A model generated the notes under the pieces. That model worked only from the letters and a program-made list of their open reading frames with translations, made no database searches and had not been told where the DNA came from. Below are positions 34,516 through 39,864 of a stretch of DNA of 64,000 nucleotides, piece by piece (the first letter of the stretch is position 1; every line of letters starts with the position of its first letter). The position numbers and the translations under genes were made by a program. The stretch is from Halovivax limisalsi (lineage in GTDB: Archaea > Halobacteriota > Halobacteria > Halobacteriales > Natrialbaceae), in the NCBI RefSeq assembly GCF_023093535.1, contig NZ_CP095757.1, positions 1,178,001-1,242,000 on the forward strand. Reading direction: 5' to 3'.

Positions 34516-36690
34516 TCAGTCCCGGCCGGTCCCGCGAGCGACTCCCAGCGACTGGAGCGCCTCGTCGTCGACGGTCGAACACAGGCGGCCGTCGAGCCGG
34601 ACGGTAAATCCGTCGTGTTCGACGAGCGAGGCGACCTCCGCCCTGGTGATCGGCAGCGGCTGGTCGGCGTCCGCGCCGACCAGCCAGTAGCCGTCGTGGT
34701 TACACTCCTCGATGACGCGACCGACGACGCCCTCCGTGCCGAGCGGCTTGACCGCCGCGCCCTGCCTGACGACGTCGGTCGGGTAACAGCAGACGGTGAA
34801 GTCGTAGCGGTCCGGTCCGGCCGCGGTGACGTCGAACACGACGGGGGACTTGCTCACGCGGCGAACGACCGTCACGGACGCCTCGCCGTCGAATCGGACG
34901 TCGACCTCGCGGTCGACGCAGGCGGTGTACACGGCGTCGGCGACCGAGAAGCCTTCGAGCAGCTGCGCGAGTACGCCCCAGACGGTCGTCCGATCCGGCG
35001 CGTCGGAGGTGAGCGCCACGGCGATCGCACCCGCGTCGATCAGCGCCTCGCCATCGGTCTCTGGCGCGGCGCCGGCGAGCCAGACGACCGGCGCGCCGAC
35101 GTCCGAGACCGCTTCGAACGCGAGCGTGCGGTCGGGACAGCGGATCCCGTCAGCGGTCGCCGGCAGGTCGATGTACAGGGCGGTTCCGTCGGCGACGAAC
35201 GCGTCCCGGAGCGTCGACGCCGACGGTCCCTCGAGCACTACCACGTCGGTATCGTGATGGTTGCGATCGGCGAACCGGCGGAAGGCCGCCGCCCGCCCCG
35301 GATCGGCCGTCGCGAGCGTGAGCCGCGCGCGCTCCGGGGGCGGTCGTTCGACGGTTCGCGCTCGCTCCATCGCCTCCGGACGCAGTCGGCAGGTTCCGGG
35401 AACCCGCGCCGAGAACGTGTGGGCCGTCAGGAGCGCGTTCGGCCGACGCCGCCCGCCACCGCCCCGTTCGTCGACCGGCGTCGCTTCGCCCGCCGAACCG
35501 TCGTCGGTCCGCCCGGTCTCGATCGGCAGCCCCTCGTCTCCGGGGGCGTTGCCCCCGTCCGTTCCCGACGGGGTCGTCGGCGGAACGGCCGACGGCGACC
35601 GGGCGACATCGATGCGGGCGAGTTCGTGTAACAGCGGCGGCAGCACCGACACGTCGGCGGGATCGGGGCGCAGGACGGCTCGCTTCGGCCAGCGCGCACG
35701 AAACGGCGCGAGCACGTCGCCCGGCACCTCGAGGTACTCCAGCAACTGGTCGGCCGGCGACAGGTCGTACAGGTTCGGCGGGTAGAACGGGAGTTCCCCC
35801 GCGAGCTGGTCGTACTCGGCGCTCGCCATCGGCTGGTAGCCGGCCTCGCGTACCAGCGAATCGAGCAGCAGACACCGTCCGAGCAGGTCGGCCACGCGCT
35901 CCGACAGGCTCGCTCGCTTCGTCTCGAGCGGTTCGACGTGGCCGTTCTCGAGGACGAGCTCTGGCGCGTCACCCGCGCGAAGGTCCGCTCCGAGGTAGAA
36001 GGCGAGCGGCGCTACCCGGTAGCAGTGCCCGTAGGTCGCCGGAATGTGAATCTCGATCCCCGTCTCCGGCGCCCGGAGGTCCGCCGGCACGTCCAGCCGA
36101 TCGCCCCGCTCGATCGCCGGCGGGTGCTGTCTGATCGTCGGCCAGGACCGCTCGCAGGTGAACTCCTTGATCGACGAGGCGAGGTACGGGAGGGCTTCGA
36201 GGAGCGCCTCCGGGTCGTCGGGGACCGTGATCGTCCCCGTCGGGTGCGACCGCAGCGAGCGCGCGCCGATGGCAACCCGCGTCTCCTCGTCGAATCGCAA
36301 TTCGACGATCGACCGGCCCGCGCCCTCGAGGTACTCCTCCGCCGTGACCGCCGCGTCCTCGATCCGGAGGTGGAGCTTCACGGCCCCGGTGATCGAGGCG
36401 TGGTAGGTCCCGCGCGGCAGGTCGGCGAGCCCGTCCGCGATGACGCCGACCTGGTTGCCGTCCTCGTCCCAGATCGTCTGCCCGAACGTTTCCCGCAAGC
36501 GCAACTGCGAGACGGTGACCGAGACCGCCTCGTCGACGGGAAAGAGGAAGACGTCCGAGAGCGCGGGCTCGAGCGCGGGCTCCCGATCGAGCTCGATCGT
36601 CACCTCGGCGCCTTCGATATCGTCCCCGACGCGGACGGTCGGGCCCTCCCGTTCGATCGAAACCGGTGACCGAGGACTCCCGCCTGCCAT
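34516..36690 (-). CDS. Large haloarchaeal protein with inactive CHAT-like C-domain
   Basis: 724 residues from the ATG at 36690. The N-terminal half is beta-rich without recognised motifs, and a Gly/Asp-rich linker sits near residues 390-430. Residues about 520-620 read ALYIDLPATADGIRCPDRTL, VVWLAGAAPETDGEALIDAG and LLEGFSVADAVYTA. This follows the shape of haloarchaeal CHAT (caspase-like) proteins, but the catalytic His and Cys positions appear replaced (YIDL instead of YIGH; LAGA instead of LNAC). The partner and role are unknown. Confidence 0.5.
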   Translation of the reverse strand: MAGGSPRSPVSIEREGPTVRVGDDIEGAEVTIELDREPALEPALSDVFLFPVDEAVSVTVSQLRLRETFGQTIWDEDGNQVGVIADGLADLPRGTYHASITGAVKLHLRIEDAAVTAEEYLEGAGRSIVELRFDEETRVAIGARSLRSHPTGTITVPDDPEALLEALPYLASSIKEFTCERSWPTIRQHPPAIERGDRLDVPADLRAPETGIEIHIPATYGHCYRVAPLAFYLGADLRAGDAPELVLENGHVEPLETKRASLSERVADLLGRCLLLDSLVREAGYQPMASAEYDQLAGELPFYPPNLYDLSPADQLLEYLEVPGDVLAPFRARWPKRAVLRPDPADVSVLPPLLHELARIDVARSPSAVPPTTPSGTDGGNAPGDEGLPIETGRTDDGSAGEATPVDERGGGGRRRPNALLTAHTFSARVPGTCRLRPEAMERARTVERPPPERARLTLATADPGRAAAFRRFADRNHHDTDVVVLEGPSASTLRDAFVADGTALYIDLPATADGIRCPDRTLAFEAVSDVGAPVVWLAGAAPETDGEALIDAGAIAVALTSDAPDRTTVWGVLAQLLEGFSVADAVYTACVDREVDVRFDGEASVTVVRRVSKSPVVFDVTAAGPDRYDFTVCCYPTDVVRQGAAVKPLGTEGVVGRVIEECNHDGYWLVGADADQPLPITRAEVASLVEHDGFTVRLDGRLCSTVDDEALQSLGVARGTGRD

Positions 36691-36791
36691 TTCCGCTACT
36701 GTTTTTTCAACTCGAATAAACCAGTACCGAATTTGGGCGAGCGACGATCCCGCTGCGCCCGTCAAATCGGCCCTCCCGCAACGTGGGGCGC

Positions 36792-39014: not shown

Positions 39015-39240
39015 CGGGTTTATGAAAGTGCTGACCCGACGCTGCGAGCCGCGATGCACGACCCCGTGGTCGGCTCGGATCGCGACCGTCGTGCGGGACA
39101 GCGCGGACGGCTCGGGCCGCGGCCATCGAAGCGGAACCCCGCGCCCGTTGTTCGGGGCATGTCGGTCGGATTCGGACCGAACGCCACGCCCTCCCCGACC
39201 AAAATACTAATATATGATATCTATTGACAATCGGAACTGG

Positions 39241-39864
39241 ATGTCGCGAAACAACACAGCAATCGACAGGCGATCGGTGCTGAAACGGCTCGGCGCGACG
39301 GGAACGGCCGCGACGGCCCTCGGGGCGGCCAGCGCATCGAGCGCCGCGGCCCCTGCGACGCGGGGCAGTGTTCGACCGCTGCCCGTCGAGCGTCTCGACG
39401 TCGAACGGATCTACGAGGCGGTTGCCGGGCAGTTACTGACGGAGCTGTTCGACGCAGGGTTGATCGACGCCGCGTCCGCATCCGCCCTCGACACGGACGT
39501 CGCGGCCGTCCGCGGCGGGCGAGCGGGTCGGGGCACGTTCGGCCTGTACATCGACGACGCCGTCGGTGAACGGAGCCTGCTCGCGACGAAGACACCGACC
39601 GACGGGGGCGTCCTGACACTCTACGTCCAGCCCGAACGCGACCTCTCGTACGCCACGCTTGAACCGGAGGAGGGCGACGATACGCTACTGTATGCGCCGG
39701 GCCAGGCTCCCGAACGAGTGTCCGCCGGGACCTCGAGTTCGTGCCCGGGGTGTACGTGTTACCCGAACTTTCCCTGCAACGATCGCGGCGGCGGGAGGAT
39801 GGAGGTCTGCTGGGTCGAATCCACCGGCGGGCTCCCGTGCGTCGAGGTGACGGGTTGCTGCTAG
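39241..39864 (+). CDS. Tat-exported cysteine-rich peptide precursor
   Basis: 207 residues from the ATG at 39241; an in-frame ATG at 39214 adds nine residues. The Tat signal is DRRSVLKRLGATGTAATALG (about 9-28). A middle domain of about 120 residues has no Cys. The last 42 residues carry eight Cys (CPGCTC, FPC, EVC, LPC, GCC). This layout recalls halocin C8-type precursors, where a Cys-rich C-terminal peptide is released, but no sequence match is claimed. It lies between the chelatase and cobN, so metal binding is an alternative. Confidence 0.6.
   Translation: MSRNNTAIDRRSVLKRLGATGTAATALGAASASSAAAPATRGSVRPLPVERLDVERIYEAVAGQLLTELFDAGLIDAASASALDTDVAAVRGGRAGRGTFGLYIDDAVGERSLLATKTPTDGGVLTLYVQPERDLSYATLEPEEGDDTLLYAPGQAPERVSAGTSSSCPGCTCYPNFPCNDRGGGRMEVCWVESTGGLPCVEVTGCC

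Follow-up and report, generated by a model that had tools for sequence, protein, structure and literature searches.

The precursor gene and its protein

The stretch of DNA analyzed here (the window) comprises 64,000 nucleotides (nt) of Halovivax limisalsi contig NZ_CP095757.1, and the element in question is a gene on its forward strand, at 39241..39864, that encodes a putative secreted precursor of 207 amino acids (aa) plus a stop codon (genome G000, protein P0001, locus L132). The gene call is backed by its translation, by an ortholog in Halovivax asiaticus JCM 14624 (L133) that is 74% identical across all 207 residues and keeps all eight cysteines, and by the 79 profile matches that we fetched. 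Sequence comparison places the gene in a large and so far unclassified family of the haloarchaea, in which one carrier domain is joined to dozens of different cysteine-rich peptides. The protein begins with a predicted twin-arginine translocation (Tat) signal peptide (39241..39360, forward strand), recognized by the motif RRSVLK at residues 10 to 15, by a hydrophobic alanine-rich stretch without a lipobox cysteine, and by weak matches to Tat models in the family; its cleavage site is predicted. The signal is followed by a cysteine-free middle domain (39361..39741, forward strand), a putative carrier or pro-domain that is the conserved part of the family, and by a cysteine-rich C-terminal peptide (39742..39861, forward strand) with the spacing C-x2-C-x-C-x5-C-x10-C-x9-C-x5-C-C, a scaffold common to five family members. 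The cysteines are residues 168, 171, 173, 179, 190, 200, 206, and 207, with none before residue 168 and with a C-terminal Cys-Cys. An earlier note on this DNA had described a Tat signal, a cysteine-free middle, and eight cysteines ending in Cys-Cys, and translation of 39241-39864 bears this out; the note placed the eight in the final 42 residues, and here the count holds while the span shortens to the last 40. A six-frame count of the window gave 341 open frames that span at least 100 codons, and just one of them has eight or more cysteines in its last 43 residues.

A TATA-like stretch noted by eye (39205..39220, forward strand), ~29 nt 5' of the start codon, is a putative promoter and would fit a leaderless transcript. 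There is an alternative in-frame ATG at 39214, but the start at 39241 is preferred because the TATA-like stretch suits a leaderless start at that position and because the match to the ortholog begins at the same methionine. Neither a membrane anchor nor a lipobox was found in the sequence of the window protein.

One carrier domain with many tails

Used as a single query against 391 genomes of the class Halobacteria, P0001 has matches in 70 at an E value of ≤0.01, and relatives reach 5e-13. Part of these matches rested on the Tat signal alone, so we built a profile, A2, from the middle domains of 23 members, P0001 among them, with the Tat signal and tail removed. A2 matches 62 of the 391 genomes at E ≤ 0.01, and the window protein, itself a seed, matches it at 2.5e-33. 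We fetched 79 A2 matches (E ≤ 9e-4, weaker matches being left out) with 7.5-kb flanks and set five aside: L198 and L200 (chance-like), L180 (no Tat motif and one tail cysteine), and L193 and L196 (cut short). The other 74, which include the 23 seeds, come from 43 genomes and all carry a cysteine-rich tail (74 of the 79 fetched matches), with 3 to 22 cysteines; the Tat pattern is present in 72, the exceptions being L170 and L188. Because A2 holds no Tat or tail columns, the constant pairing of the middle domain with a cysteine-rich end is a result of the search and not an input to it. Confident members thus occur in 43 of the 391 sampled haloarchaeal genomes, which often hold more than one copy; the maximum in the fetched set is six, in G123. 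Beyond the class, a search of 69 genomes from elsewhere in the phylum gave no match.

Searches of Pfam, NCBIfam, and PADLOC with the 23 seed members returned nothing convincing beyond the Tat-signal models of NCBIfam, and PDB sequences gave no match for a profile of the mature part or for the window tail. We rejected a viral, phage, or plasmid origin for the gene: viral contigs hold no relatives of P0001, of one other member, or of the enzyme profile described below; a phage search with one family member had no match; and among plasmid searches made with five members, only that with P0001 had matches, two homologs on Halorussus plasmids. No description of a carrier/cysteine-tail family was found in the portions of the literature covered (among them PMC10853753, PMC4008528, and PMC10105419), which did not include the 2019 survey by Makarova et al. 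in mBio, reportedly (going by its title) a survey of archaeal antimicrobial peptides.

The tails differ from the middle domains in composition and vary widely in cysteine spacing. Cysteine makes up 756 of 4,560 tail residues and 9 of 7,808 middle-domain residues, and the 74 members show 68 distinct cysteine spacings. In the tandem neighbors L160 and L162, the middle domains are 62% identical, while non-cysteine tail positions are 10% identical. Of the 70 members with E ≤ 1e-4 (72 matches minus L180 and L193), 65 have an even number of mature cysteines, counted after residue 40 (binomial p = 1e-14, not corrected for relatedness), as do 61 of the 65 distinct spacings. Even counts together with export favor disulfides over metal thiolates, and the family as a whole points to a conserved carrier whose tails are disulfide-rich peptides. 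The eight-cysteine scaffold of the window protein, with small loop changes allowed, is present in L132 (the window gene), L133 (its ortholog), L182, L183, and L194, which span three haloarchaeal families (f1, f8, and f4); a six-frame scan of the same loci, covering 2.38 million residues, showed it nowhere else. Homologs with the same cysteine spacing, proposed in the earlier note as a way to check its idea, therefore exist; homologs lacking the cysteine pattern, which it named as a counter-sign, were found only in the sense that the exact pattern is not kept, cysteine richness itself being retained almost everywhere. A divergent subgroup (L174, L175, L184, and L187) has 3 to 4 tail cysteines in a conserved spacing and one more cysteine in the matched middle; unlike those of other family members, its tails are well kept.

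A tryptophan-ending branch and its enzyme

Clustering of the neighbors of 70 loci (the five matches set aside and four overlapping duplicates being dropped) gave one striking partner, a protein of ~285 aa that is encoded next to seven loci from six genomes; all seven loci carry precursors ending in tryptophan. In the PDB set, the profile of this enzyme matches a nonaprenyl diphosphate synthase (E = 4.6e-7), and Pfam PF00348 is weakly reached by 2 of the 7 single enzymes (best 0.0013, below the curated cut-off). A final tryptophan is found in 9 of the 74 members, and 8 of these 9 have the enzyme in their 15-kb locus. G000 itself holds two Trp-ending paralogs of the window gene; the ninth Trp-ending member, L129, is a G000 paralog, and the single enzyme copy of that genome adjoins the third paralog, L146. 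Among the 65 members without a final tryptophan, the enzyme accompanies only L172, the third gene of a tandem array in G161, which ends in GWL. The association is strong by Fisher's test, whether counted by member (p = 5e-9) or by locus (7 of 8 versus 0 of 62; p = 7e-9), with relatedness not corrected in either case, and a final tryptophan occurs in 5 of 765 neighboring frames. Gene orientation varies among the enzyme loci and the enzymes are only 33 to 67% identical to the first, which argues that the pairing is not one recently copied segment.

The enzyme is rare: searched for alone, it was found in 8 of 242 genomes, three of them new. At one of the new loci, in G192, the gene directly beside the enzyme encodes another kind of Tat precursor (L236, 638-1378, reverse strand), which ends in NSWI and so hints independently that the enzyme is tied to a C-terminal tryptophan. 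Against a strict pairing, the enzyme loci of G145 and G050 have no Trp-ending Tat precursor within 14 kb. Judged by pattern, DDxxD is present in 10 of 10 archaeal enzymes, and 9 of 10 have Q-x3-D-x2-Q in place of the second aspartate motif. According to a 2026 review, the characterized trans-isoprenyl diphosphate synthase-like prenyltransferases all act on tryptophan, their second Asp-rich motif now serves to recognize that residue and is directly preceded by a common glutamine, and one of them, PalQ, acts on a C-terminal tryptophan and loses activity if the chain continues (PMC13290415). The Trp-ending precursors are thus comparable to the ComX-ComQ and PalX-PalQ systems, in which a Trp-ending precursor stands beside a trans-prenyl-synthase-like enzyme, and the archaeal enzyme resembles ComQ and PalQ in its DDxxD, its degenerate second Asp motif, and the conserved glutamine before it, a likeness drawn from published marks. 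The precursors themselves differ from ComX and PalX in being archaeal, Tat exported, and cysteine rich, and in place of an NHLP leader they have a carrier domain of their own. On these grounds, the Trp-ending precursors are probably prenylated on the terminal tryptophan by the neighboring enzyme, a concrete chemical prediction, namely, that the final residue would bear a prenyl group. The likeness would extend to this subset only; unlike ComX and PalX, the window protein ends in Cys-Cys, and no prenyl-synthase-like enzyme is encoded in the 64-kb window, so the window gene stands outside the branch. No archaeal tryptophan prenyltransferase was described in the portions of the literature covered. 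Excerpts of one study state that "comX homologs" were excluded from BAGEL4-labeled proteins common to archaea and bacteria (PMC12352652), which implies that ComX-labeled archaeal proteins have been seen before.

A proposed secreted precursor of a disulfide-rich peptide

Our data show a Tat signal, a constant domain plan, a conserved carrier with changing tails, even cysteine counts, several copies per genome, and the association of a final tryptophan with the prenyl-synthase-like enzyme. With moderate confidence, we propose that the product of the window gene is a precursor that gives rise to a secreted, disulfide-rich, bioactive peptide, one that acts on other cells as an antimicrobial or a signal; we infer that the tail is oxidized to disulfides extracellularly, is released, and acts on other cells. 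The window protein would be exported by the Tat route, with its cysteine-free middle domain, the shared carrier or pro-domain, folding in the cytoplasm and keeping the peptide export competent and inactive. Once exported, the protein would form four disulfides from its eight cysteines, and a protease would free a C-terminal peptide of ~40 residues, which would then act on other cells, either as a halocin-like antimicrobial or as a signal. The predicted prenylation of the Trp-ending subset supports the view that the tails are made as modified, bioactive peptides. A broader model, in which the family is a combinatorial arsenal of secreted disulfide-rich peptides on one Tat carrier, with the Trp branch (the two G000 paralogs included) lipidated by an archaeal ComQ/PalQ-type prenyltransferase and the products serving as signals or toxins, seems to us evenly balanced between right and wrong. 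If the tails are released peptides, the family would amount to a rich natural collection of disulfide scaffolds that share a carrier, and it could lead to peptide antibiotics or pheromones from archaea. Animal conotoxin-type gene families likewise join a conserved carrier to a hypervariable, cysteine-framed peptide; the analogy may hold in logic only, since these belong to another domain of life and no homology is claimed.

Several observations weigh against the proposal that the gene encodes a bioactive peptide precursor. No known immunity, export, or processing gene adjoins the window gene, whose neighbors are cobalamin genes, and across the family the neighbors of the 70 clustered loci vary, with no universal partner. 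Odd cysteine counts occur in 5 of the 70 members, and some related pairs keep both parts, such as L145 and L150 (middle, 81% identical; tail, 84%). Between the window gene and its H. asiaticus ortholog, the ratio of nonsynonymous to synonymous substitution rates (dN/dS) is ~0.32 in the tail and ~0.29 in the middle domain; in this one pair the tail is under purifying selection much like the middle domain, with no signal of a recent arms race or of diversifying selection. An AlphaFold model made with two sequences had a mean pLDDT (predicted local distance difference test) score of 30.

The strongest of the alternatives is that the protein is secreted and never cut, its tail being a disulfide-stabilized domain for extracellular binding or adhesion that differs among members for the sake of recognition and is displayed on a common stalk. 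A carrier with a hypervariable disulfide-rich end would suit a display module, and the protease site of the precursor model is putative. The window protein has no membrane anchor or lipobox, and the constant last residue of the Trp subset, with its prenyl-synthase-like gene, fits a modified peptide better; we therefore regard an uncut display domain as unlikely, though it fares best among the rivals. The proteolytic release that the precursor model calls for has a partial parallel in HmHapP (HFX_0892) of Haloferax mediterranei, which, according to excerpts of its description, is likewise secreted by a haloarchaeon as a precursor and becomes active on extracellular proteolysis (PMC12893001). 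HmHapP differs in that its active part is the helical N terminus and in that the word cysteine is absent from the main text of that paper (PMC12893001).

Relation to halocin C8

The earlier note had likened the protein to microhalocin C8 precursors, which it described as an "immunity part" plus a cysteine-rich peptide. The likeness in plan stands: halocin C8 precursors are also haloarchaeal and also have a Tat signal, a cysteine-poor middle, and a cysteine-rich C-terminal peptide, in the same order. Family membership does not stand, and we rejected it. TIGR04449, the model of halocin C8-type precursors, matches 30 of 242 genomes of the class but did not list the window protein at E ≤ 10 and had no match in G000, and the cysteine-rich domain here is a different one. 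Comparison by hhalign of the 74 middle domains with 28 halocin C8-type (HalI-type) N-terminal regions gave a probability of 0.2% over 11 columns, and single-sequence hmmsearch between the two sets gave ~10 bits at most, with E values that refer to a small database. The full-length family profile, Tat part included, weakly touches some halocin C8 precursors. One TIGR04449 precursor, L039, carries a sequence that we take to be halocin C8. Whereas C8-type tails share one model and mostly have 10 cysteines, the tails of the window-gene family are hypervariable and differ in spacing from member to member. On sequence evidence, then, the window protein would resemble halocin C8 in plan without a relationship having emerged between them, and the strict version of the idea, in which one precursor yields both a toxin and an immunity protein from its middle domain, appears quite improbable; nothing in this analysis supported the immunity assignment. 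A halocin C8-like gene does lie at G073:C6 109001, 6 kb from L183 (103020), a member with the window scaffold.

Genomic neighborhood

The window gene is flanked by a chelatase gene with AAA/VWA domains on the reverse strand and by cobN (PF02514, 1293 bits) on the forward strand, followed by cbiC. This position between the chelatase gene and cobN, pointed out in the earlier note, is thus correct, and it is conserved in H. asiaticus; three other genomes of the genus that were searched have neither a CobN match nor a close ortholog of the window gene. By tblastn, cobN lies within 7.5 kb of 2 of 81 family loci, namely, the two orthologs, and the same is true of the chelatase gene and cbiC. Other members adjoin thiC on Halorussus plasmids and many kinds of chromosomal housekeeping genes. 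The suggestion that the gene product is a secreted metal-binding peptide serving the cobalt supply of the neighboring cobN, which the conserved position and the shared absence from the three genomes would favor, found no support and is very improbable, given that cobN is near the two orthologs only, that relatives adjoin unrelated genes, that even cysteine counts and export favor disulfides, and that co-presence in two genomes may reflect one inherited segment; a cobalt role was rejected as a family trait.

Other neighbors deserve mention. In the window, a large protein without a Pfam match (34516-36765, reverse strand) adjoins the chelatase gene; a relative of it (36% identical over 345 aa) is encoded near family locus L161, and its end presumably corresponds to a CHAT-type His/Cys protease. 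ABC-2 type permease/ATPase pairs, named by eye and with no control count, occur within 7.5 kb of L141, L145, L182, L183, L190, and L194. A membrane protein (profile A6) that has a CxPC motif at its N terminus, what look like membrane stretches, and a cysteine-rich C terminus is encoded near six family loci (L182, 8043-8852; L183, 6289-7167; L143, 9843-10649; L185; L192; and L202). It is common, being present in 175 of 194 genomes, and among its best 30 loci, Tat/cysteine-containing precursors stand beside four non-seed loci (L246, L266, and L268, with a halocin C8-like frame at L258); that it might act as a thiol oxidase or in immunity is only a guess. Downstream of L134, L169, L179, and L195 (gene +1), a secreted or lipoprotein-like protein of 384 to 435 aa is encoded, with a clear HExxH in two cases (HELSH and HEYVH) and a degenerate one in the other two; the one tested gives weak Pfam matches only. 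From its motif, this protein is a possible processing metalloprotease.
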